Shown piece by piece: positions 1-6,453 of a stretch of DNA of 6,453 nucleotides. Within the stretch, counting starts at the first letter, position 1, and each line of letters starts with the position of its first letter. Where the stretch lies: the NCBI GenBank assembly GCA_937883885.1, contig CAKZXL010000539.1, positions 1 through 6,453 on the forward strand, read 5' to 3'. This DNA is from an uncultured Aquincola sp. (GTDB taxonomy: Bacteria > Pseudomonadota > Gammaproteobacteria > Burkholderiales > Burkholderiaceae). Below the pieces are notes generated by a model, which saw only the letters and a program-made list of their open reading frames with translations, was not told where the DNA came from and searched no databases. Both the position numbers and the translations under genes were made by a program.

Positions 1-1046
1 CCGATGGCCGCTACCCCGATGGCTTCGATGCGCAGCAGCCGCCGGGCACCCGCTCGTCGGTGGCCTGGGTGCTGCAGCATGCGTTCACGCTGGGCGCCGT
101 GACGGTGACACCCGGCCTGCGCTGGGACCGCTACACGCTGGAAGCCGACGGCCCCGCGGCGCTGATGCGGCAGGCTGCGGGCGAACCCGCGCGCTACCGC
201 TTCGAGCGCCACACACCCAGCCTGAGCCTGGCATGGAAGCCTGGCGCGGCCTGGTGGTTGAGCTACCGCGTGATTCAGAGCTTTCGGCCACCGCTGTTGA
301 ACGACTACTTCGGCATGGAAGCGGCCAACCCCTGCGGCGGGCTGCTTGACGGGCAGGGCGGCCAGTTGCTGCCCCATGGCTGTGGCGATGCGGTGCAGCC
401 CACCGAATCGCTCAACCGCGAGCTGACGCTGGCCTGGACGCCGCCACGCTGGGCCTCGGGCGCCAGCACCCAGGCCCGGCTGACGCTCTACCGCATCGAC
501 TCGCGCCACCTCAACGGCGCCAGCTACCTGGCGGCCGAAGACGGCCGCGTGGTGCAGCCCTTCCGCGAGAAGCGCCGCGGCGTGGAAGTGGAAGTGCAGC
601 ACGAGCGGCGCGAGGTCTACGGCAGCTTCGGTCTGTCGCGCATCCTGGCCGAGCGCTGGCGCGACGGTCAACCGGCGCGTCCGTTCTTCGCCGGCATACC
701 GGGCACCACCGCGAACCTGAGCCTGGGCCGCCGCTGGCAGCAGGGCCGCTGGGAAGCAGGCTGGCGGCTGCGCCAGATCTGGGACCAGAAGGTGTCGGAA
801 GCGCGCCAGCTCAATGCCAACACCCAGTGGTGCGGCAAGGTGACTTCACAAGGCACCGTGCATGCGGCCAACACCCAGCAGGACGTGTATGCCTTCTGGC
901 GGCCCACCGAGCGGGTGACGCTGCAGCTGGGCATCCACAACGTCTTCGACAAGCACTGGTGCCATGCCGGCGACGAACTCGGCAACGAGATCGGCCTGCA
1001 AGGCCCCGGCCGCAGCCTGCGGCTGTCGATCACCGCGCAGTACTGA
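1..1046 (+). CDS. TonB-dependent outer-membrane receptor, C-terminal beta-barrel (5' partial)
   Basis: The frame is open from base 3 with no start, so only the last 347 residues are visible and the plug domain and TonB box lie outside the window. What is seen is alternating aromatic/polar beta-strand sequence and the family-typical segment SYRVIQSFRPPLLNDYFG followed by ESLNRELTLAW, which resembles the 'FRAP...E.S...ELG' stretch of TonB-dependent receptors. Near the end come NVFDKHW and GPGRSLRLSITAQY, finishing on an aromatic residue as expected for insertion by the BAM machinery. Such proteins import scarce ligands (siderophores, heme, cobalamin, metals) across the outer membrane using TonB energy. 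The GPGRSLRL ending and overall style are compatible with heme/hemoglobin-type receptors, but this is a guess. Visible residues 111 and 127 are Cys in one probable loop, and 277 and 320 are two more, so loop disulfides are possible. The lipoprotein gene follows after 13 nt, suggesting co-transcription. Confidence 0.86.
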   Translation, partial: DGRYPDGFDAQQPPGTRSSVAWVLQHAFTLGAVTVTPGLRWDRYTLEADGPAALMRQAAGEPARYRFERHTPSLSLAWKPGAAWWLSYRVIQSFRPPLLNDYFGMEAANPCGGLLDGQGGQLLPHGCGDAVQPTESLNRELTLAWTPPRWASGASTQARLTLYRIDSRHLNGASYLAAEDGRVVQPFREKRRGVEVEVQHERREVYGSFGLSRILAERWRDGQPARPFFAGIPGTTANLSLGRRWQQGRWEAGWRLRQIWDQKVSEARQLNANTQWCGKVTSQGTVHAANTQQDVYAFWRPTERVTLQLGIHNVFDKHWCHAGDELGNEIGLQGPGRSLRLSITAQY

Positions 1047-1059
1047 AAGCACCTTGAAC

Positions 1060-2202
1060 ATGAGCCTGAAGTCGATGACCCTGGCCACCGATGGCGCCGG
1101 CCCCGGCCTGCCGGCCATGAGCCGCTGCGGGCGCTGGCGCCGCTGGGCCTGGCTGCTGGCCATGGCCTCGGCCACCGCGGCCTGCGGCGGTGGCAGCGGC
1201 GGTGGGGGCGGGCCGCTGCCGGCGGCCAGCCAGGCGCCGGTGCCTGTGCCCTCGCCGGTGCCGGTGCCTGCACCGGCGCCCGTGCCTGCACCGGCACCGG
1301 GCCCTGTTCCCGCACCCGCACCCGCGCCCGCACCCGCACCCGCACCCGCACCCGCACCCGCACCCGCGCCGGCGCCGGCGCCGGCGCCGGCGCCGGCGCC
1401 ATCTCCTGCGCCTTCACCCGCGCCTGCGCCAAGCCCAGCGCCAGCGCCGGGCCCTTCGCCTGCGCCATCTCCTGCGCCGTCGCCTGCGCCCGCACCCACC
1501 CCCGCACCAGCGCCTCCACCGTCACCCGCACCCAGCCCCGCGCCGGCTCCCGCCACGGCCCAGGCCTGCCTGAACACCGCGCTCTACACCCAGGCCGGCA
1601 CCGTCGCGCGCTACGAATACGCGCTGCGGCGGGGCGGGGTGGACCAGCGGGTGGAGGTCACCAGCACCGCGGAAGGCCCGGCCAGGATCGAAGGCCAGAC
1701 CGCCTGGCGGCTGGCCGTGGCCGAAACCGTGCGCACACCGGGACAGCCCGACCAGCTGTCCAGCAGCCAGCATCACCTGCTGCTGGACGGCAGCCTGCTG
1801 CGGCTGCTGGCCACGCGCAGCGAGTTCGTGCAGGGCGGCGCCACCGTCACCCAGGCCATCGTGCTGTCGCCCGCGCTGCCTGAGCTGGACTTCGGCCTGG
1901 CCGCCGACAGCAGCCGCAGTGCATCGGCCAGCGCCCGCCTGAGCCTGGGCGCCGCGGCCACCACGGCCAGCACCGCCACCTGGAGCAGCGAAGCCACGCT
2001 CACCTTCACCGGCCTGGAGACGGTGCAGGTGCCGGCCGGCAGCTTTGCCCAGGCCTGCCGCTTCGAGCAGCGGCTGGTCAGTGGCGGCCACGTGCAGACC
2101 AGCCAGCGCTGGCTGGCCGCCGGCACCGGCGTGCTGCTGAAGATGACCAGCGGCAGCGACACCCAGGAACTGGTTTCCGCCCGGATCGACGGCGCACGTT
2201 GA
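1060..2202 (+). CDS. Lipoprotein with long Pro-Ala stalk and C-terminal beta-rich domain
   Basis: A 380-residue protein of unrecognised specific function. From the ATG at 1060 there is a basic stretch (R22-R28), a hydrophobic segment (W29-A41) and a lipobox-like ATAAC with the acylated Cys at position 42, then a glycine-rich tether (43-51). Thr at -3 of the lipobox is not the most common residue. Residues 60-165 are almost strictly alternating Pro with Ala/Val/Ser, expected to form a stiff extended rod. Residues 170-380 form a globular, probably beta-sheet domain. It includes VPAGSF (324-329), then Cys333 and SQRWLAAGTG (348-357), a pattern seen in periplasmic lipoproteins that carry 'VPAGTF..C....W.A.G.G'. 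Cys170 and Cys333 could pair. A second in-frame ATG at 1117 gives a more compact signal peptide but has no visible Shine-Dalgarno; 1060 has a weak GAAAG 10 nt upstream. The gene lies 13 nt after the receptor and may serve as its surface or periplasmic partner (inference). Confidence 0.85.
   Translation: MSLKSMTLATDGAGPGLPAMSRCGRWRRWAWLLAMASATAACGGGSGGGGGPLPAASQAPVPVPSPVPVPAPAPVPAPAPGPVPAPAPAPAPAPAPAPAPAPAPAPAPAPAPAPSPAPSPAPAPSPAPAPGPSPAPSPAPSPAPAPTPAPAPPPSPAPSPAPAPATAQACLNTALYTQAGTVARYEYALRRGGVDQRVEVTSTAEGPARIEGQTAWRLAVAETVRTPGQPDQLSSSQHHLLLDGSLLRLLATRSEFVQGGATVTQAIVLSPALPELDFGLAADSSRSASASARLSLGAAATTASTATWSSEATLTFTGLETVQVPAGSFAQACRFEQRLVSGGHVQTSQRWLAAGTGVLLKMTSGSDTQELVSARIDGAR
1237..1551 (+). 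repeat. Low-complexity Pro-Ala coding tract
   Basis: About 315 nt in which nearly every second codon is proline (CCC, CCG, CCT or CCA) and the partners are mostly Ala, with some Val, Ser, Gly and Thr. Codons are varied at both edges and nearly uniform in the centre (1309-1398), as expected for an old degenerate repeat with a recently expanded core. The tract encodes residues 60-164 of the lipoprotein stalk. Confidence 0.9.
1309..1398 (+). repeat. Tandem hexanucleotide array, 15 units in frame
   Basis: Ten consecutive units of CCCGCA or CCCGCG (1309-1368; the G variants are at 1321 and 1363) run directly into five units of CCGGCG (1369-1398). Every unit encodes Pro-Ala, so gain or loss of units changes stalk length by two residues without breaking the frame. 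The first block is a perfect series of three-G tracts spaced by three bases on the - strand. The second block is self-complementary. Confidence 0.93.
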
Positions 2203-2231
2203 ACACCTTCACTCCCACCCCCCACCTCACC
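2203..2231 (+). other. G-free pyrimidine-rich spacer before the small gene
   Basis: The 29 nt between the lipoprotein stop and the ATG at 2232 contain no G on the + strand, an outlier in this GC-rich window. There is therefore no Shine-Dalgarno for the small gene. Translation could depend on coupling from the upstream stop, on S1-type binding to the unstructured leader, or on a TTG at 2199 that overlaps the TGA stop. The - strand is correspondingly G-rich, with a six-G run. Confidence 0.6.
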
Positions 2232-2441
2232 ATGACGGAGCAACCCAGCGACCGGGCCCGGGCCCGCCTGTGCCAACTTTTCGACGAACTGCTGCAGCAC
2301 GACGGCTTCGGCGACCTCAGCGTCGAGATGCGCATCCTCAAGCGCGGCCAGAAGGAGGTGCTGATCCGCTGCGGCAAGCAGTACCGCTACGTGGTCGACT
2401 TCGAGCCTGGGCCTGGCGCGCAGGCTTGTCTAGACAAGTAG
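2232..2441 (+). CDS. Small conserved-looking protein of unknown function (69 aa)
   Basis: I do not recognise this family with certainty. The 69-residue product is soluble, with no signal peptide or membrane segment. The N-terminal half (about residues 8-23, RARARLCQLFDELLQH) looks like an amphipathic helix. The second half, RGQKEVLIRCGKQYRYVV, looks like a beta-hairpin with alternating hydrophobic and charged residues, followed by a short Pro-Gly tail. The even spread of charged and hydrophobic residues and good codon use argue for a real gene. An in-frame TTG at 2199 overlapping the lipoprotein stop would add 11 residues rich in Thr and Pro; I prefer the ATG because the extension looks like non-coding spacer. 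It is the third gene in the receptor-lipoprotein run. The hairpin loosely recalls the small hemin-uptake protein HemP, but the usual basic C-terminal 'TR.GKLILTK' is absent. Confidence 0.62.
   Translation: MTEQPSDRARARLCQLFDELLQHDGFGDLSVEMRILKRGQKEVLIRCGKQYRYVVDFEPGPGAQACLDK
2425..2438. promoter_or_regulatory. Perfect 14-bp palindrome CTTGTCTAGACAAG
   Basis: This perfect inverted repeat with no spacer covers the last four sense codons of the small gene and stops just before its TAG. The regulator gene on the other strand ends 11 bp further on. It contains the GTCTAGAC core typical of operators bound by HutC-subfamily GntR regulators, and CTAG is a rare tetranucleotide in many bacteria. As RNA it gives only a 5-bp stem with a CUAG loop and has no U-tract, so it is a poor terminator. 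Its position between two gene ends is odd for an operator. Confidence 0.5.
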
Positions 2442-2448
2442 CCGCCGC

Positions 2449-3321
2449 TCAACGCCCCATCACCCGCCGCACCACGGCCGGCGCGCCATCGGTGCGGTTG
2501 CCCCAGGTGCCGATGTTGGCCGCCTGCATCAAGGGCGATGCATTGCCTGCCACCGCCATCTCGGCGGCCACCTCCATCAGCTCGGGGCCGAACTGCAGCA
2601 TGCGCGCTTCGGTCAGCCGCACCGAAGGCCCGGCCACCACGATGACGCCGGTGGCCGGCTCGCCGCGGCGCTGCACCGGCGCGGCCATGCTGCTCATGCC
2701 CGGCGCATAGGTTTCGCGCACCAGGCTGAAGCCGCGCTTGCGGTGCTCCTTGAGCAGCGTCATCAGCGCCTTGATGCTGCGCGGCGCATTGGGGCCGTAG
2801 CTGGCGCGGTCGCCCATGCCCTGGCGGGCCAGCGCCTGCATGGCCTGGTCTTCGGTCAGCGTCATCAGCCAGGCATGGCCGGCGGCGCTGCAAGACAGGT
2901 TCAGCTCGATGCCCATGTCGGGGTCGTAGCGCAGGCCCGAGCGGGCCCCCTGGGCCTTGGCCACCAGCGTCAGCCGCTCACCGTCGACGATGGCCAGCCG
3001 CACCAGTTCTTCCGTGCGCTCGGCCATGCGGTTGATCAGCGGCTGGGCGATGTCCACCACGCCCGACTTGCTCAGGAAACTCAACCCCAGCGAAGCCAGC
3101 TTGCTGGTGAGCGCATAGCTGCCGCGCAGCGGCAGCGCACGCACGTAGCCATAGCCGATGAGCTCCTGCAGCGTGCGGTGGCAGGCGCTGCGCAGCTGGT
3201 TCAGGTCGGTGGCGATGGCGGCCAGCGGCGCCCCGTCGGGACGGGCGGCCAGGTATTCGATGATGGCGATGGACTTCTCGAGGGCTCCGCTCACGCTGCT
3301 TGTGTCTCCTGGCAATGCCAT
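2449..3321 (-). CDS. IclR-family transcriptional regulator
   Basis: A 290-residue cytoplasmic DNA-binding regulator. Residues 12-62 form the IclR-type winged helix-turn-helix: ALEKSIAIIEYLAARPDG, then the recognition region LRSACHRTLQELIGYGYV, which corresponds to the usual 'lpkSTvhRlL..L...G'. Residues 85-265 are the GAF-like effector-binding domain with the family landmarks GLRYDPDMG (129-137), SCSAAGHAWL (143-152) and a C-terminal ETYAPGMSSMAAPV segment. Length is slightly above the family's usual 250-280. The ATG at 3321 has a poor ribosome site. A GTG at 3294 (281-residue product) has AGGAG 11 nt upstream and may be the true start. The gene is divergent from the PQQ dehydrogenase across a 335-nt control region, the classic position for a local regulator of a catabolic gene. 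Effector and sense of regulation cannot be deduced. Confidence 0.94.
   Translation of the reverse strand: MALPGDTSSVSGALEKSIAIIEYLAARPDGAPLAAIATDLNQLRSACHRTLQELIGYGYVRALPLRGSYALTSKLASLGLSFLSKSGVVDIAQPLINRMAERTEELVRLAIVDGERLTLVAKAQGARSGLRYDPDMGIELNLSCSAAGHAWLMTLTEDQAMQALARQGMGDRASYGPNAPRSIKALMTLLKEHRKRGFSLVRETYAPGMSSMAAPVQRRGEPATGVIVVAGPSVRLTEARMLQFGPELMEVAAEMAVAGNASPLMQAANIGTWGNRTDGAPAVVRRVMGR
3310..3320. promoter_or_regulatory. 11-bp dyad TGGCA-A-TGCCA at the regulator start
   Basis: Perfect 5-bp inverted arms around one central base, lying inside the first four codons of the long regulator form and, for the short form, just upstream of and touching the Shine-Dalgarno AGGAG. A protein bound here could repress the regulator gene itself. 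Short dyads arise by chance, so the call is weak. Confidence 0.3.
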
Positions 3322-3333
3322 TCAAGTTTTGAA
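3321..3333. promoter_or_regulatory. 13-bp AT-rich dyad TTCAA-GTT-TTGAA
   Basis: Perfect 5-bp arms around three bases, directly next to the TGGCA dyad. TTCAAG recurs at 3338-3343, 17 bp later. The dyad opens a 42-nt patch (3321-3362) with 30 A/T bases, the most AT-rich stretch of the window and the likely core of the divergent promoters. Confidence 0.3.
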
Positions 3334-3346
3334 CGATTTCAAGAAT

Positions 3347-3375
3347 ATTGGAATGGTTTTGAGCTTCGCTGGCAA
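3347..3375 (-). promoter_or_regulatory. Candidate sigma70 promoter for the IclR regulator
   Basis: Read on the - strand: TTGCCA (3375-3370; five of six match TTGACA), a 17-nt spacer, and TCCAAT (3352-3347; four of six match TATAAT). The predicted start of transcription near 3340 leaves a leader of about 20 nt to the ATG or 45 nt to the GTG. The -35 overlaps the left arm of the 23-bp palindrome, which would suit autoregulation. Confidence 0.4.
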
Positions 3376-3394
3376 CCTTCGGTCCGACGGTTGC
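3372..3394. promoter_or_regulatory. Near-perfect 23-bp palindrome, candidate operator
   Basis: Outer arms GCAACC (3372-3377) and GGTTGC (3389-3394) enclose inner arms TCGG (3379-3382) and CCGA (3384-3387) around a central T at 3383. Ten of the eleven possible pairs match; only 3378/3388 fails. It overlaps the candidate -35 of the regulator and lies between the AT-rich patch and the first good ribosome site on the + strand, so one bound dimer could affect both directions. The divergent IclR protein is the natural candidate ligand. In RNA it would be a hairpin in the dehydrogenase leader if transcription starts upstream. Confidence 0.55.
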
Positions 3395-3432
3395 GCCCTG
3401 GATGCGCACCGCACATTCAAAGAGGAGACACC

Positions 3433-3465
3433 ATGACCCAGCATCCGCCCATCCCGGCCACCTAG
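3433..3465 (+). CDS. Possible 10-codon upstream reading frame (leader peptide MTQHPPIPAT)
   Basis: The ATG at 3433 is preceded by AGAGGAGA at near-ideal spacing, the strongest + strand ribosome site in the window, yet the frame stops at TAG after ten codons. The dehydrogenase start lies 191 nt further on in another frame. The peptide has two consecutive prolines and a third nearby, a type of sequence at which ribosomes can pause. It could be a regulatory leader peptide, or the surviving start of a gene whose body was deleted. It has no signal peptide or known motif. Confidence 0.3.
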   Translation: MTQHPPIPAT

Positions 3466-3552
3466 CCGCGGCGCGCCCGCGCCCGCGCAGCCCGCCGCAC
3501 ACGATGCGCCGGCGCCTGCCGGCCCCGCGCCATGCCCGATCCCTGACGACCT

Positions 3553-3587
3553 GCCGGCTGAGCCGGCGGCGCCCTGTTGCGCCGCCG
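3553..3587 (+). promoter_or_regulatory. Two overlapping, mutually exclusive leader hairpins
   Basis: Hairpin A has a GCCGGC stem (3553-3558 with 3562-3567) and a TGA loop. Hairpin B has a 9-bp perfect stem CGGCGGCGC (3564-3572) with GCGCCGCCG (3579-3587) and a 6-nt CCTGTT loop. They share 3564-3567, so both cannot form at once. There is no T-tract after hairpin B, so it is not a standard intrinsic terminator. They lie about 90 nt after the 10-codon frame and 70 nt before the dehydrogenase start. GC-rich sequence makes chance stems likely. Confidence 0.35.
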
Positions 3588-3656
3588 CGCCCGTGCACGG
3601 CCCTGCATCCCTGTGGCAGCGCACAAGCCGCTGCCTTCACCTCCACGAGGACACCC

Positions 3657-6383
3657 ATGATGAAGATGAGTCACATCGCCACCGCTGCGCTGATCGCGAT
3701 GGCCGCTTCGGCCAGCACCGCCGTGCTGGCGCAGTCGGCCCTGGCGCCTGCCGGCAACAACTGGCCTTTCGTGCACGGCAGCCTGGGCAGCCAGGGCTAT
3801 TCGTCGCTGACGCAGATCAACAAGGGCAACATCAAGAACCTGGGTCCCGCCTGGGTGGTGCACACCAACGTGGAACCGGTGACGCAGCCGGTGCCTGGCC
3901 CCGGCAACACCGCCGTCGGCCAGCAGACCACCCCGGTGGTGGTGGACGGCGTGATGTACCTCGACACCCCGGGCGGCGGCGTGATGGCGCTCAATGCCGC
4001 CACCGGCGCGGTGAAGTGGAAGTGGCAGCCTTCGGTGGAGGCCAATGGCTTTGGCGGCATCAACCAGCACCGGGGCGTCAGCGTGGGTGAAGGCCGTGTC
4101 TACACCACCGCGGCCGGCGGCCGCATGGTGGCCTTGAACCAGGAAACCGGCGCGCTGATCTGGGCCGTGGTGCCCACCTACAACGGCACCGCGATCGGCG
4201 GCATCGGCAAGGTGGCCACCATGTACCACGACGGCATGGTGTACCAGGGCACCAACGACAACGGCCGCGGCGCCATGGTGGCGGTGCGGGCCAGCGACGG
4301 TGCCACGCAGTGGGTGTTCTACAGCGCCTACCCGCACGGCACCAAGTTCACCGACGTCAACGGCACCACCTTCGATGCGGGCGACACCTGGACCACCCGC
4401 AACAGCCCCAACGACACGCCCAACGAGTGCTACCTCAATGCCGGCGGCTCGTCGTGGATCCATCCCAGCTTCGACCCCGAGCTGGGCATGCTGTACGTCA
4501 CCTTCGGCAACCCGCGCAGCTGCACCGGCGCGCAGTGGGGCAGCGACCGCCCGGGCGACAACCTCTTCACCAGCTCGCTGGTGGCGCTGGACCTGAAGAC
4601 CGGCAGCTACAAGTGGCACTTCCAGTCGGTCAAGCACGACGTCTGGGACATGGACAACGTGCACACCCCCAGCCTGGCCGACGTGCAGATCGGCGGCCAG
4701 ACGCGCAAGGTGGTGTACTACGGCAGCAAGTCGGGCCACCAGTTCGTGCTGGACCGCACCAACGGCAAGCCGGCCCTGCCGGTGGTGTACCGGCAGGTGC
4801 CCACCGATGCGCGCCAGTCGCAGCCCACCACGCAGCCGTTCCCGGCGTCGGGCCCGTTCCAGGAACAGTGCCTGGTCTACCAGAACCTGGGCTCCGAAGT
4901 GCCCGGCGCGCCCAACCGCGCGGTGCCCAACTGGAACGGCTACCAGGCCCAGCCCGACCCCGAGAAGCCGGGCCAGTACAAGCTGGTGCTCAACCCCGAC
5001 AACTACCTGAAGAACGACACGCAGTACCTGTCGGGCACGCGTGAAGGCTGCATGTACGACCCGCACTGGAACGACAGCAGCATGTCCCTGTCGATGACCA
5101 GCCAGAACGGTGCGGCCGACTGGTCCAACGTGTCCATCAGCCCCAGGCTGAACCTGCGCTACATCGGCATGTCGTACAACCCGGTGGCGCACGGCGCCTT
5201 CCAGGGCGGCAACGGCCTACGGCAGATCGGCGGCTACCAGACCGGCGGCGTGGTGGCGGTGGACGCTTCCACCAACCTGCCGGTGTGGCGCCAGTACTTC
5301 GGCCTGGGCGGCGACGTGGCGCACGGCAACCACCCGCTGGTGACGGCCAGCGACCTGCTGTTCATCAACCGCGTGGACGGCTGGCTGGTGGCCATGGACG
5401 CCCAGACCGGGCAGGAGCTGTGGCGCTTCCAGACCGGTGCGCCCAGCGCCTCGGGCGTGGTGACCTACACCGTCAATGGCGAGCAGTACATCGCCATGCC
5501 CGCGATGGCCGGCACCCAGCCTTATGCCCAGCAAGGGCAGGGCGCCGCGGTGTGGGCCTTCAAGCTCGGCGGCAAGGCGGTGTACACCACCGGCCCGCGT
5601 GCCAACCCGGTGGTGGTTTCGGGCAGCAGCGAAGCGCCGGCCCCGGTGCCCATCACCAACCTGCGGCGCCCGGTGGACAACACCGCCGGCACCGACATGC
5701 CGGCCAACACCATCTACCTGGCCCGCAACAACGCCACGGCCACCGCCACCAAGGACAGCGTGACCACGGGCTCGATGGTGCCCAGCCGGCTGACGGTGCC
5801 GGTAGGCACCACGGTGACCTTCACCAACCCGGGCGATGCCACCTTCGGCGTGGCCGGCAGCGGCAACCTCAAGGAGCACTGCGCCACGCAGTACTTCGAA
5901 GGCAAGTTCAATTTCCGGCTGCAGCCGGGCCAGTCGGCGCAGTACAAGTTCGACCGCGAGGGCGAGTACTACTACAACGACTGCACCGACCCGCGCCCCA
6001 CCGGCAAGGTCACGGTGACGCTGGCCGCGCAGGAACAACCCGGCGCGCTGCAGTTCACGCCCAACACGCTGAACCTGCGCCCGGCCAACGGCGTGTTCAC
6101 CAGCGTGCAAGGCCTGGTCACGGCCACCTTCAAGCTGCCCGCCGGCTACACGCTGGACGGCAACGTGCAGCTGAAGACGCCGCTGACGCAGCAGACCTTC
6201 CCGGCCGTCAGTGCCAGCACCACGTCCGACGGCAAGACGCTGGTGGTCACCTTCGACAAGGCGCTGGTGGACAACAACATCCCGCAAGGCAGCGACGTGC
6301 CGCTGACGGTGTCGGCCAACTTCATGCACCAGGGCGTGCAGAAGAAGCTGACGTCCACCGCCGCCGTGCGCGTCATCAAGTGA
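3657..6383 (+). CDS. Exported PQQ-dependent dehydrogenase with cupredoxin-like C-terminal domain
   Basis: A 908-residue quinoprotein of the PQQ alcohol/glucose dehydrogenase superfamily, predicted periplasmic. The start at 3657 follows GAGG at 3647-3650 and gives a clean signal peptide (1-25, cleavage after VLA). Residues about 30-641 form the beta-propeller, with blade repeats such as LNAATGAVKW (112-121), LNQETGALIW (160-169) and MDAQTGQELW (581-589 region). Active-site landmarks are GNP with Asn285, HDVWDMD with likely catalytic Asp331 and Asp333, and TTQPFP (391-396). The vicinal cysteine pair of methanol-type enzymes is absent (Gly133-Gly134 align there), and there is no CxxCH heme motif. 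Residues about 685-789 resemble a plastocyanin-type domain (LTVPVGTTVTFTNP, LQPGQS, EYYYNDC), with most copper ligands missing. Residues 790-908 are a beta-sandwich tail (LQFTPNTLNLRP to RVIK). The six mature cysteines (258, 289, 405, 465, 742, 776) could form disulfides. The substrate is unknown; alcohols, polyols or aldoses are possible. It is divergent from the IclR gene and probably coupled to the next gene. Confidence 0.93.
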   Translation: MMKMSHIATAALIAMAASASTAVLAQSALAPAGNNWPFVHGSLGSQGYSSLTQINKGNIKNLGPAWVVHTNVEPVTQPVPGPGNTAVGQQTTPVVVDGVMYLDTPGGGVMALNAATGAVKWKWQPSVEANGFGGINQHRGVSVGEGRVYTTAAGGRMVALNQETGALIWAVVPTYNGTAIGGIGKVATMYHDGMVYQGTNDNGRGAMVAVRASDGATQWVFYSAYPHGTKFTDVNGTTFDAGDTWTTRNSPNDTPNECYLNAGGSSWIHPSFDPELGMLYVTFGNPRSCTGAQWGSDRPGDNLFTSSLVALDLKTGSYKWHFQSVKHDVWDMDNVHTPSLADVQIGGQTRKVVYYGSKSGHQFVLDRTNGKPALPVVYRQVPTDARQSQPTTQPFPASGPFQEQCLVYQNLGSEVPGAPNRAVPNWNGYQAQPDPEKPGQYKLVLNPDNYLKNDTQYLSGTREGCMYDPHWNDSSMSLSMTSQNGAADWSNVSISPRLNLRYIGMSYNPVAHGAFQGGNGLRQIGGYQTGGVVAVDASTNLPVWRQYFGLGGDVAHGNHPLVTASDLLFINRVDGWLVAMDAQTGQELWRFQTGAPSASGVVTYTVNGEQYIAMPAMAGTQPYAQQGQGAAVWAFKLGGKAVYTTGPRANPVVVSGSSEAPAPVPITNLRRPVDNTAGTDMPANTIYLARNNATATATKDSVTTGSMVPSRLTVPVGTTVTFTNPGDATFGVAGSGNLKEHCATQYFEGKFNFRLQPGQSAQYKFDREGEYYYNDCTDPRPTGKVTVTLAAQEQPGALQFTPNTLNLRPANGVFTSVQGLVTATFKLPAGYTLDGNVQLKTPLTQQTFPAVSASTTSDGKTLVVTFDKALVDNNIPQGSDVPLTVSANFMHQGVQKKLTSTAAVRVIK

Positions 6384-6391
6384 GGTCCGTG

Positions 6392-6453
6392 ATGATCCGA
6401 CGTTTGAACCTGAGCGCCCGCCTGCGGGCGGTGCCGGCGGCAGTGCTGCTGGC
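6392..6453 (+). CDS. Start of an exported or membrane protein gene (3' partial)
   Basis: Only 20 full codons are visible: MIRRLNLSARLRAVPAAVLL. A basic N-terminus followed by the start of a hydrophobic stretch suggests a signal peptide or membrane anchor. The ribosome site GAGG (6382-6385) overlaps the TGA of the dehydrogenase, and the ATG lies 8 nt after that stop, so translation is probably coupled; a GTG at 6389 is an alternative start. A 7-bp GC inverted repeat (6415-6421 with 6424-6430) falls within the first codons. A periplasmic electron acceptor or accessory protein would fit the context, but nothing visible identifies it. Confidence 0.6.
   Translation, partial: MIRRLNLSARLRAVPAAVLL

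Follow-up and report, generated by a model that had tools for sequence, protein, structure and literature searches.

The DNA analysed here is a 6,453-nucleotide stretch from an uncultured Aquincola sp. (GenBank assembly GCA_937883885.1, contig CAKZXL010000539.1, positions 1 to 6,453; 'the window' below), which encodes on its forward strand a protein of 908 amino acids (3657..6383, with an ATG at 3657 and a stop codon at 6381–6383). The protein consists of a pyrroloquinoline quinone (PQQ) propeller, a domain with a predicted cupredoxin fold and a terminal beta-sandwich. It begins with a Sec-type signal peptide without twin arginines (residues 1–26, 3657..3734), classified from the sequence with a regular expression and with the cleavage site placed by eye; residues 1–24 have a predicted local distance difference test score (pLDDT) below 50 in the structural model. 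The propeller (about residues 30–640, 3744..5576) matches PF01011 with 271.5 bits against a cut-off of 26.7. The cupredoxin domain, which appears to be copper-less, is placed by the predicted fold and by profile alignments at about residues 698–788 (5748..6020). The beta-sandwich tail, putatively immunoglobulin-like (residues 791–908, 6027..6380), is modelled with pLDDT 88–98 by blocks of ten and has no Pfam match. The model of the whole chain has a predicted template modelling score (pTM) of 0.89, and a fold search with it was dominated by propellers. Over residues 640–908 a database protein is 95% identical.

The original prediction for this locus, made from the sequence alone, described a PQQ dehydrogenase fused to a cupredoxin-like domain that had lost its copper ligands and followed by a beta-sandwich tail. 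The fold model and the profile alignments agree with this architecture, and the tail is borne out by its pLDDT values and by homologous tails in 132 of 341 sequences. Taken as a whole, the observation is partly confirmed and the interpretation partly supported: the loss of the copper set stands, while the assignment of residues to ligand positions does not.

Distribution of the family

The comparison draws on 341 sequences, namely 338 proteins from three homolog searches (120 of 497, 120 of 213 and 106 of 106 matches listed), two locus translations and the protein of the window. All but two are PQQ-propeller proteins with this domain; the exceptions, P0341 and P0342, are tandem true cupredoxins and are left out of a set of 339. 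A set of 321 omits the 20 sequences shorter than 550 residues, P0341 and P0342 among them. The protein belongs to a large, widespread and nameless family of quinoproteins from Burkholderiales, Acidobacteria, Actinobacteria and others, with source names that include Aquincola, Rhizobacter, Piscinibacter, Variovorax, Pseudohongiella, Acidobacteria, Verrucomicrobiae, Chloroflexota and many Actinobacteria. Some sources label its members 'glucose dehydrogenase/plastocyanin', which would wrongly suggest copper electron transfer. One open literature library contained no paper that, judged by title or abstract, joins a PQQ-dependent enzyme or quinoprotein with a plastocyanin-like or cupredoxin domain, and nothing on cupredoxins with lost copper ligands by that wording. 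The present analysis describes this widespread architecture, so far without a name.

Within the family of Aquincola, 20 of 299 genomes matched at E 0.01 or better. Sixteen of them carry the HC(A/V)TQ...NDC type at 18 loci (2 long forms and 16 short forms that end just past the domain). The remaining four gave weak matches only, three of which are ordinary single cupredoxins. At the DNA level the locus is 92% identical to locus L039 over 4247 bases and 89% identical to that of Aquincola tertiaricarbonis (L004) over 2770 bases. Among the first 121 sequences, columns with 99% identity make up 31 of 90 positions in the domain (701–790) versus 58 of 634 in the propeller region (27–660), a contrast that is partly selected for because these homologs were found via the tail.

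The former copper site

Fold comparison with the predicted model places a Greek-key cupredoxin fold in the domain, and the outcome of a non-cupredoxin fold did not arise. The Pfam models Copper-bind and Cupredoxin_1 match at about residues 693–787, under their gathering cut-offs of 21.2 and 27 bits; they score 16.5 and 16.0 bits, respectively, with the whole protein, 21.1 and 19.1 with a 264-residue tail piece, and 18.5 and 21.7 with the domain alone. HMMER aligned a short relative to 6hbe, 9cck and amicyanin, and comparison of the family with nine canonical domains in hhalign gave a probability of 98.8 with short relatives (<840 residues) and 98.6 with all 339 sequences.

The motif YNDCTxPxxTG aligns without gaps to Y-x-C-x-x-H-x-x-M-x-G of true cupredoxins in HMMER, MAFFT and hhalign. 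The position of the copper cysteine falls on the second residue of Asn774-Asp775-Cys776 (5976..5984): Asp775 is conserved in 337 of 339 relatives, Asn774 in all 339, and HMMER and hhalign agree on this placement. Cys776 adjoins the position, and as a candidate for the copper ligand itself, the role that it had been given in the original prediction, it is rejected. That prediction had also taken His741 (5877..5879) as displaced; profile alignments place it instead on the canonical first histidine, where His is retained in 337/339. The second copper-histidine position is occupied by Asp778 (5988..5990) and is variable, with Asp in 128 sequences, Ser in 108, Phe in 52, Tyr in 21, Ala in 11, His in 7 and rarer residues. 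Pro781 (5997..5999) stands at the copper-methionine position, where relatives have Pro, Asn, Thr, Ser, Ala or Ile and Met in none of the 339 (both positions from hhalign columns of this set). A complete His-Cys-His-Met set was found in 0/339, which upholds the claim that the type-1 set is lost, and the first 243 sequences lack both a His at 779 and any Met across 777–784. The suggestion that the YNDC variant looks too ordered for decay is supported as well.

The register around His741 was followed further. The 9cck HMMER alignment, MAFFT and hhalign all set this residue on the first ligand histidine, and the spacing His741-x13-Leu-x-Pro-Gly, counted by eye, equals that in true cupredoxins (L028–L030); across 243 sequences it is 13 residues in 178 and 14 in 65. 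Short relatives are without the insertion that contains ATF, and one of these reads NPADNTQPHCVTQ. Two alignments count against the register. When the domain of the window alone is compared with 5fc9 in HMMER, the 5fc9 histidine falls opposite the insertion, and when a short form is compared with amicyanin, the family histidine lies beside a non-ligand histidine.

Taken together, the domain has a cupredoxin fold, as modelled, yet by its aligned residues does not belong to the type-1 copper proteins. Nitrosopumilus maritimus has two comparable domains that are titled copper proteins, its purple cupredoxin (5fc9) and the cupredoxin at the C-terminus of its multicopper oxidase (9cck), whereas the domain in the window has Asp, Asp and Pro for Cys, His and Met and is placed behind a PQQ propeller. 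Compared with amicyanin, three of the four copper ligands are replaced, and the pair Asn54/Thr93 has become Cys/Cys.

Cysteines and protein export

Cys742 (5880..5882) and Cys776 each directly follow a copper ligand position. In amicyanin the matching residues are Asn54 and Thr93, and a simulated N54S substitution is reported to break the hydrogen bond between them (PMC12723479); in azurin, Asn47 is described as interacting with residue 113 (PMC12071310). The residue pairs at 742/776 in the 339 relatives are CC (220), GP (62), GC (18), AA (15), GS (12) and rarer ones. Among all 341 sequences both cysteines occur in 220 and Cys776 alone in 18, and Cys742 never occurs without Cys776. Fisher values, which take no account of kinship, are not counted as proof here.

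Two propeller cysteines, Cys405 (4869..4871) and Cys465 (5049..5051), co-occur with Cys742 and complete a set of four. Cys405, Cys465 and Cys742 are present in the identical 206 of 321 proteins, every one with Cys776, and 18 more have Cys776 only. Presence of the set follows the export signal, classified here with a home-made regular expression and not with a trained predictor. A twin-arginine signal is present in 114 of the 115 proteins that lack the set; the remaining one is truncated. The 206 with the set comprise 182 of the Sec or other type, 17 unclear cases, 4 lacking a start and 3 that are twin-arginine by rule though without the typical motif. On the tree, the set was lost on three branches, each with a gain of the twin-arginine signal. 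P0032, the only protein without the set among the first 121 sequences, departs from 118 near-invariant columns at just four, these being the four cysteines. It starts with MKRRSFL (twin-arginine type), and its sister P0015 (support 0.94) is of the Sec type and has all four. A search for P0032-like forms among 369 genomes of the class gave one match, the known Aquincola genome.

Direct-coupling analysis (321 sequences, effective number 116) scored the six cysteine pairs at 1.50 (742–776), 1.10 (465–742), 1.01 (405–742), 0.93 (405–465), 0.83 (465–776) and 0.62 (405–776). Because the set tracks Sec export and is missing in twin-arginine forms, the simplest reading favours disulfides that would form after Sec export. 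A Cys742–Cys776 disulfide, as proposed originally, is likely, since the counterparts touch in cupredoxins and Cys742 is never seen without Cys776. Disappearance of the set together with the switch to twin-arginine export provides a natural test of how the export route affects disulfides.

The propeller and its electron acceptor

The best propeller relatives with solved structures include 1kb0, 1yiq, 6dam and 6zcv. D331-M-D333 (4647..4655) aligns with HDEWDYD of XoxF (6dam) and HDGWDFD of PedH (6zcv), and thus corresponds to the catalytic aspartate and the Asp-x-Asp motif of lanthanide-dependent PQQ dehydrogenases. We take D331 to be the catalytic aspartate and N285 to be the metal-binding asparagine of PQQ dehydrogenases. 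Residues are widely kept in the 321 sequences: Arg139 in 316, Trp267 in 319, Asn285 in 300, Asp331 in 320, Asp333 in 318 and Lys358 in all 321. The Asp-x-Asp motif is taken elsewhere as a mark of lanthanide enzymes (PMC11996626), and judging from this motif the propeller is probably that of a lanthanide PQQ dehydrogenase. The protein shares the propeller and the motif with XoxF and PedH, but differs from them in its additional C-terminal domains and in lacking the vicinal Cys-Cys. In the alignment to 6dam the metal-binding glutamate stands opposite a gap, with N200 and D201 close by. Before the NRG motif, where 1kb0 has GCCDVVNRG, it reads GGINQHRG. A vicinal Cys-Cys does occur directly after the signal peptide in the consensus of 61 long relatives (xxCCxPAxxDWP, near residue 28), and the protein of the window is without it. 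Among NCBIfam models, TIGR03075 (methanol/ethanol family) is below its cut-off (254.9 versus 480.05 bits), and the 'acido-empty' quinoprotein model matches far under its own.

Among the top sequence matches are type II quinohemoprotein alcohol dehydrogenases (1kb0, 1yiq, 1kv9), which also combine the propeller with an additional C-terminal domain. In those enzymes the additional domain is a cytochrome c. In the present family its place is taken by the cupredoxin fold, and cytochrome c is separate or lies further along. Behind the cupredoxin domain, 191 of the 341 sequences end within 30 residues, 132 (including that of the window) continue with the window-type tail and 16 with a cytochrome c motif. 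CxxCH occurs before the domain in 0/341, and the protein of the window is not among the 16 with CxxCH behind it. In P0160, P0173, P0131 and P0139 (the last two partial), a single chain joins the propeller and the copper-less cupredoxin to a cytochrome c motif and a ComEA-like helix-hairpin-helix (HhH). In the Acidobacteria loci L001 and L002 the next downstream gene encodes a cytochrome c-HhH protein 33–34% identical to the fused ones (E about 1e-22). These arrangements suggest a cytochrome c as the likelier electron acceptor. Electron transfer through the cupredoxin domain, which sits where an electron-transfer module would be expected, is unlikely because 16 of the 341 sequences have a cytochrome c motif behind it.

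PqqE scores over the cut-off in 9 of the 19 host genomes, and one more has a split copy; the three Acidobacteria genomes are among those that stay below it. This count takes only matches over the cut-off, since 14/14 control genomes matched at E 1e-10 and none of them exceeded it. In L037 a short-form gene directly precedes pqqB-, pqqC- and pqqE-like genes, and L038 shows the same gene order, judged from a PqqE match and matching protein starts. At both loci the short-form dehydrogenase and pqq genes are immediately preceded by a gene for a ThuA-domain lipoprotein-like protein (L037:8720-9781, L038:219-1325; Pfam was run on the L037 copy).

Functional interpretation

The explanation that we favour, and regard as reasonably probable, is a periplasmic PQQ dehydrogenase with a copper-less cupredoxin domain as structural adaptor, stapled by cysteines, and with electrons delivered to cytochrome c. 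The C-terminal cupredoxin fold would have given up copper and been retained as a link from the catalytic propeller to a C-terminal module that can be exchanged and may be nothing, a beta-sandwich (as here) or a cytochrome c. The empty copper pocket would be occupied by the conserved pair His741/Asp775, at the positions from which His and Cys formerly bound copper. In Sec-exported members the pocket would be stapled by the Cys742–Cys776 disulfide, gained and lost along with Cys405 and Cys465 of the propeller, and electrons would pass from PQQ to a cytochrome c, bypassing the cupredoxin domain. The family would then be an example of a fold that has outlived the loss of its metal site, conserved residues having taken the place of the ligands.

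Several observations weigh against this explanation. His741, Asn774 and Asp775 are conserved beyond the needs of a mere spacer, and a metal or docking role would explain them; this conservation would also fit a non-classical metal or a packing contact with the propeller. The correlation between cysteines and export is carried by only three tree events, and two further gains of the twin-arginine signal by rule (P0151; P0152 and its sister) retain the set. P0032 keeps Cys258 and Cys289, and further cysteines (columns 593 and 180) recur among the proteins that lack the set, so twin-arginine export does not abolish all cysteines. The coupling scores leave the cysteine pairing unsettled. The high conservation of the tail arises partly by selection, the homologs having been chosen on tail similarity. 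Finally, the neighbourhood of the dehydrogenase in L003, L004 and L039 shows no convincing gene for a cytochrome c, the CxxCH matches in L003 and L039 looking like wrong-frame open reading frames (ORFs).

The alternatives are in part not mutually exclusive, and their odds do not sum to one. It is possible, if not the expected case, that the domain turns its former copper face to the propeller, capping it or docking there close to the PQQ entrance, with His741, Asn774 and Asp775 as interface or active-site residues, a reading that is compatible with the structural adaptor. The pTM of the whole-chain model suggests a fixed domain arrangement, and the former copper face accounts for 6 of the top 10 inter-domain couplings (2.6 expected, p 0.025). 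However, this enrichment fades to 11 versus 7.8 expected in the top 30 (p 0.14) and 31 versus 26.2 in the top 100 (p 0.16). We consider it doubtful that the four cysteines form one inter-domain unit, either as two cross-domain disulfides or as a four-cysteine metal cluster. The all-or-none occurrence of Cys405, Cys465 and Cys742 across domains would fit such a unit, as would the couplings 465–742 and 405–742, which exceed 405–465. However, 742–776 is the top coupling of the six, and the set is missing in twin-arginine forms, twin-arginine being the route expected where a protein acquires its metal cluster in the cytoplasm. The reported contacts between the counterparts of 742 and 776 in cupredoxins (PMC12723479, PMC12071310) also argue for pairing within the domain. 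A working blue-copper electron carrier with mis-aligned ligands is extremely improbable: the kinship to amicyanin-like cupredoxins is clear, but the His-Cys-His-Met set is absent from all 339 relatives, and the first 243 offer neither His779 nor a Met in 777–784 as substitutes.

Non-classical metal binding in the pocket, redox-active or structural, through His741, Asp775 and Asp778 (His778 in 7 relatives) in place of His-Cys-His also seems unlikely. His741 and Asp775 are near-invariant (337/339 each), and among long-type sequences position 778 is Asp in 125/133 and His in 6/133. Across the family, however, 192/339 have Ser, Phe, Tyr or Ala at this position, which therefore cannot be a shared ligand, and no Met is available. 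FtrB, in which, as in the present domain, Asp stands in for the usual His-His-Cys set, is reported to bind Cu2+ with D118 and H121 as proposed ligands; binding was lost in D118A but kept in H121A, and the crystal described there showed no copper (PMC11966278). Its authors also cite a Cys-to-Asp azurin that binds Cu2+ (PMC11966278). The motifs differ, D118 and H121 of FtrB forming D-x-x-H (PMC11966278) and D775-C-T-D778 forming D-x-x-D; the FtrB-like Asp-x-x-His is absent from the ligand loop here, and His at 778 occurs in only 7/339. Still less probable is a more specific proposal, a natural 'Cys-to-Asp' cupredoxin spread across phyla, in which Asp775 beside the kept His741 (with Asp, rarely His, at 778 in long forms) would form a metal site of a non-classical kind, in a domain joined to a lanthanide quinoprotein. 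If true, this would be a natural counterpart of the engineered type zero copper azurin.

Genomic context

The window opens with the C-terminal part of a TonB-dependent receptor (3-1046, forward strand, PF00593), for which the best NCBIfam models are haem/haemoglobin receptors, under cut-off. The following ORF (964-2202) has no Pfam match and contains a Pro-Ala-rich stretch encoded by low-complexity repeats with periods of 6–24 (1236-1493). An IclR-type regulator (2449-3321, reverse strand, PF01614 and PF09339) is divergent from the dehydrogenase gene and, by sequence, also adjoins the dehydrogenase homolog in L004 and L039. The next gene downstream starts at 6392 and runs past the end of the window. 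Its counterpart in L039 and the following gene (L039:11040-12709) both encode PEP-CTERM proteins, of which the second has a choice-of-anchor L domain, and beyond this pair lie a TIM-barrel protein with a Tat-like (twin-arginine) start, a 2-oxoglutarate/iron (2OG-Fe) oxygenase and a TRAP transporter. Behind the dehydrogenase in L002 (Acidobacteria) as well as in L004 and L039 (Aquincola-type) there is a gene for a xylose-isomerase-like TIM barrel with a Tat-like start, with Pfam assignments for L002 and L039. This shared neighbour may hint at the substrate of the dehydrogenase.

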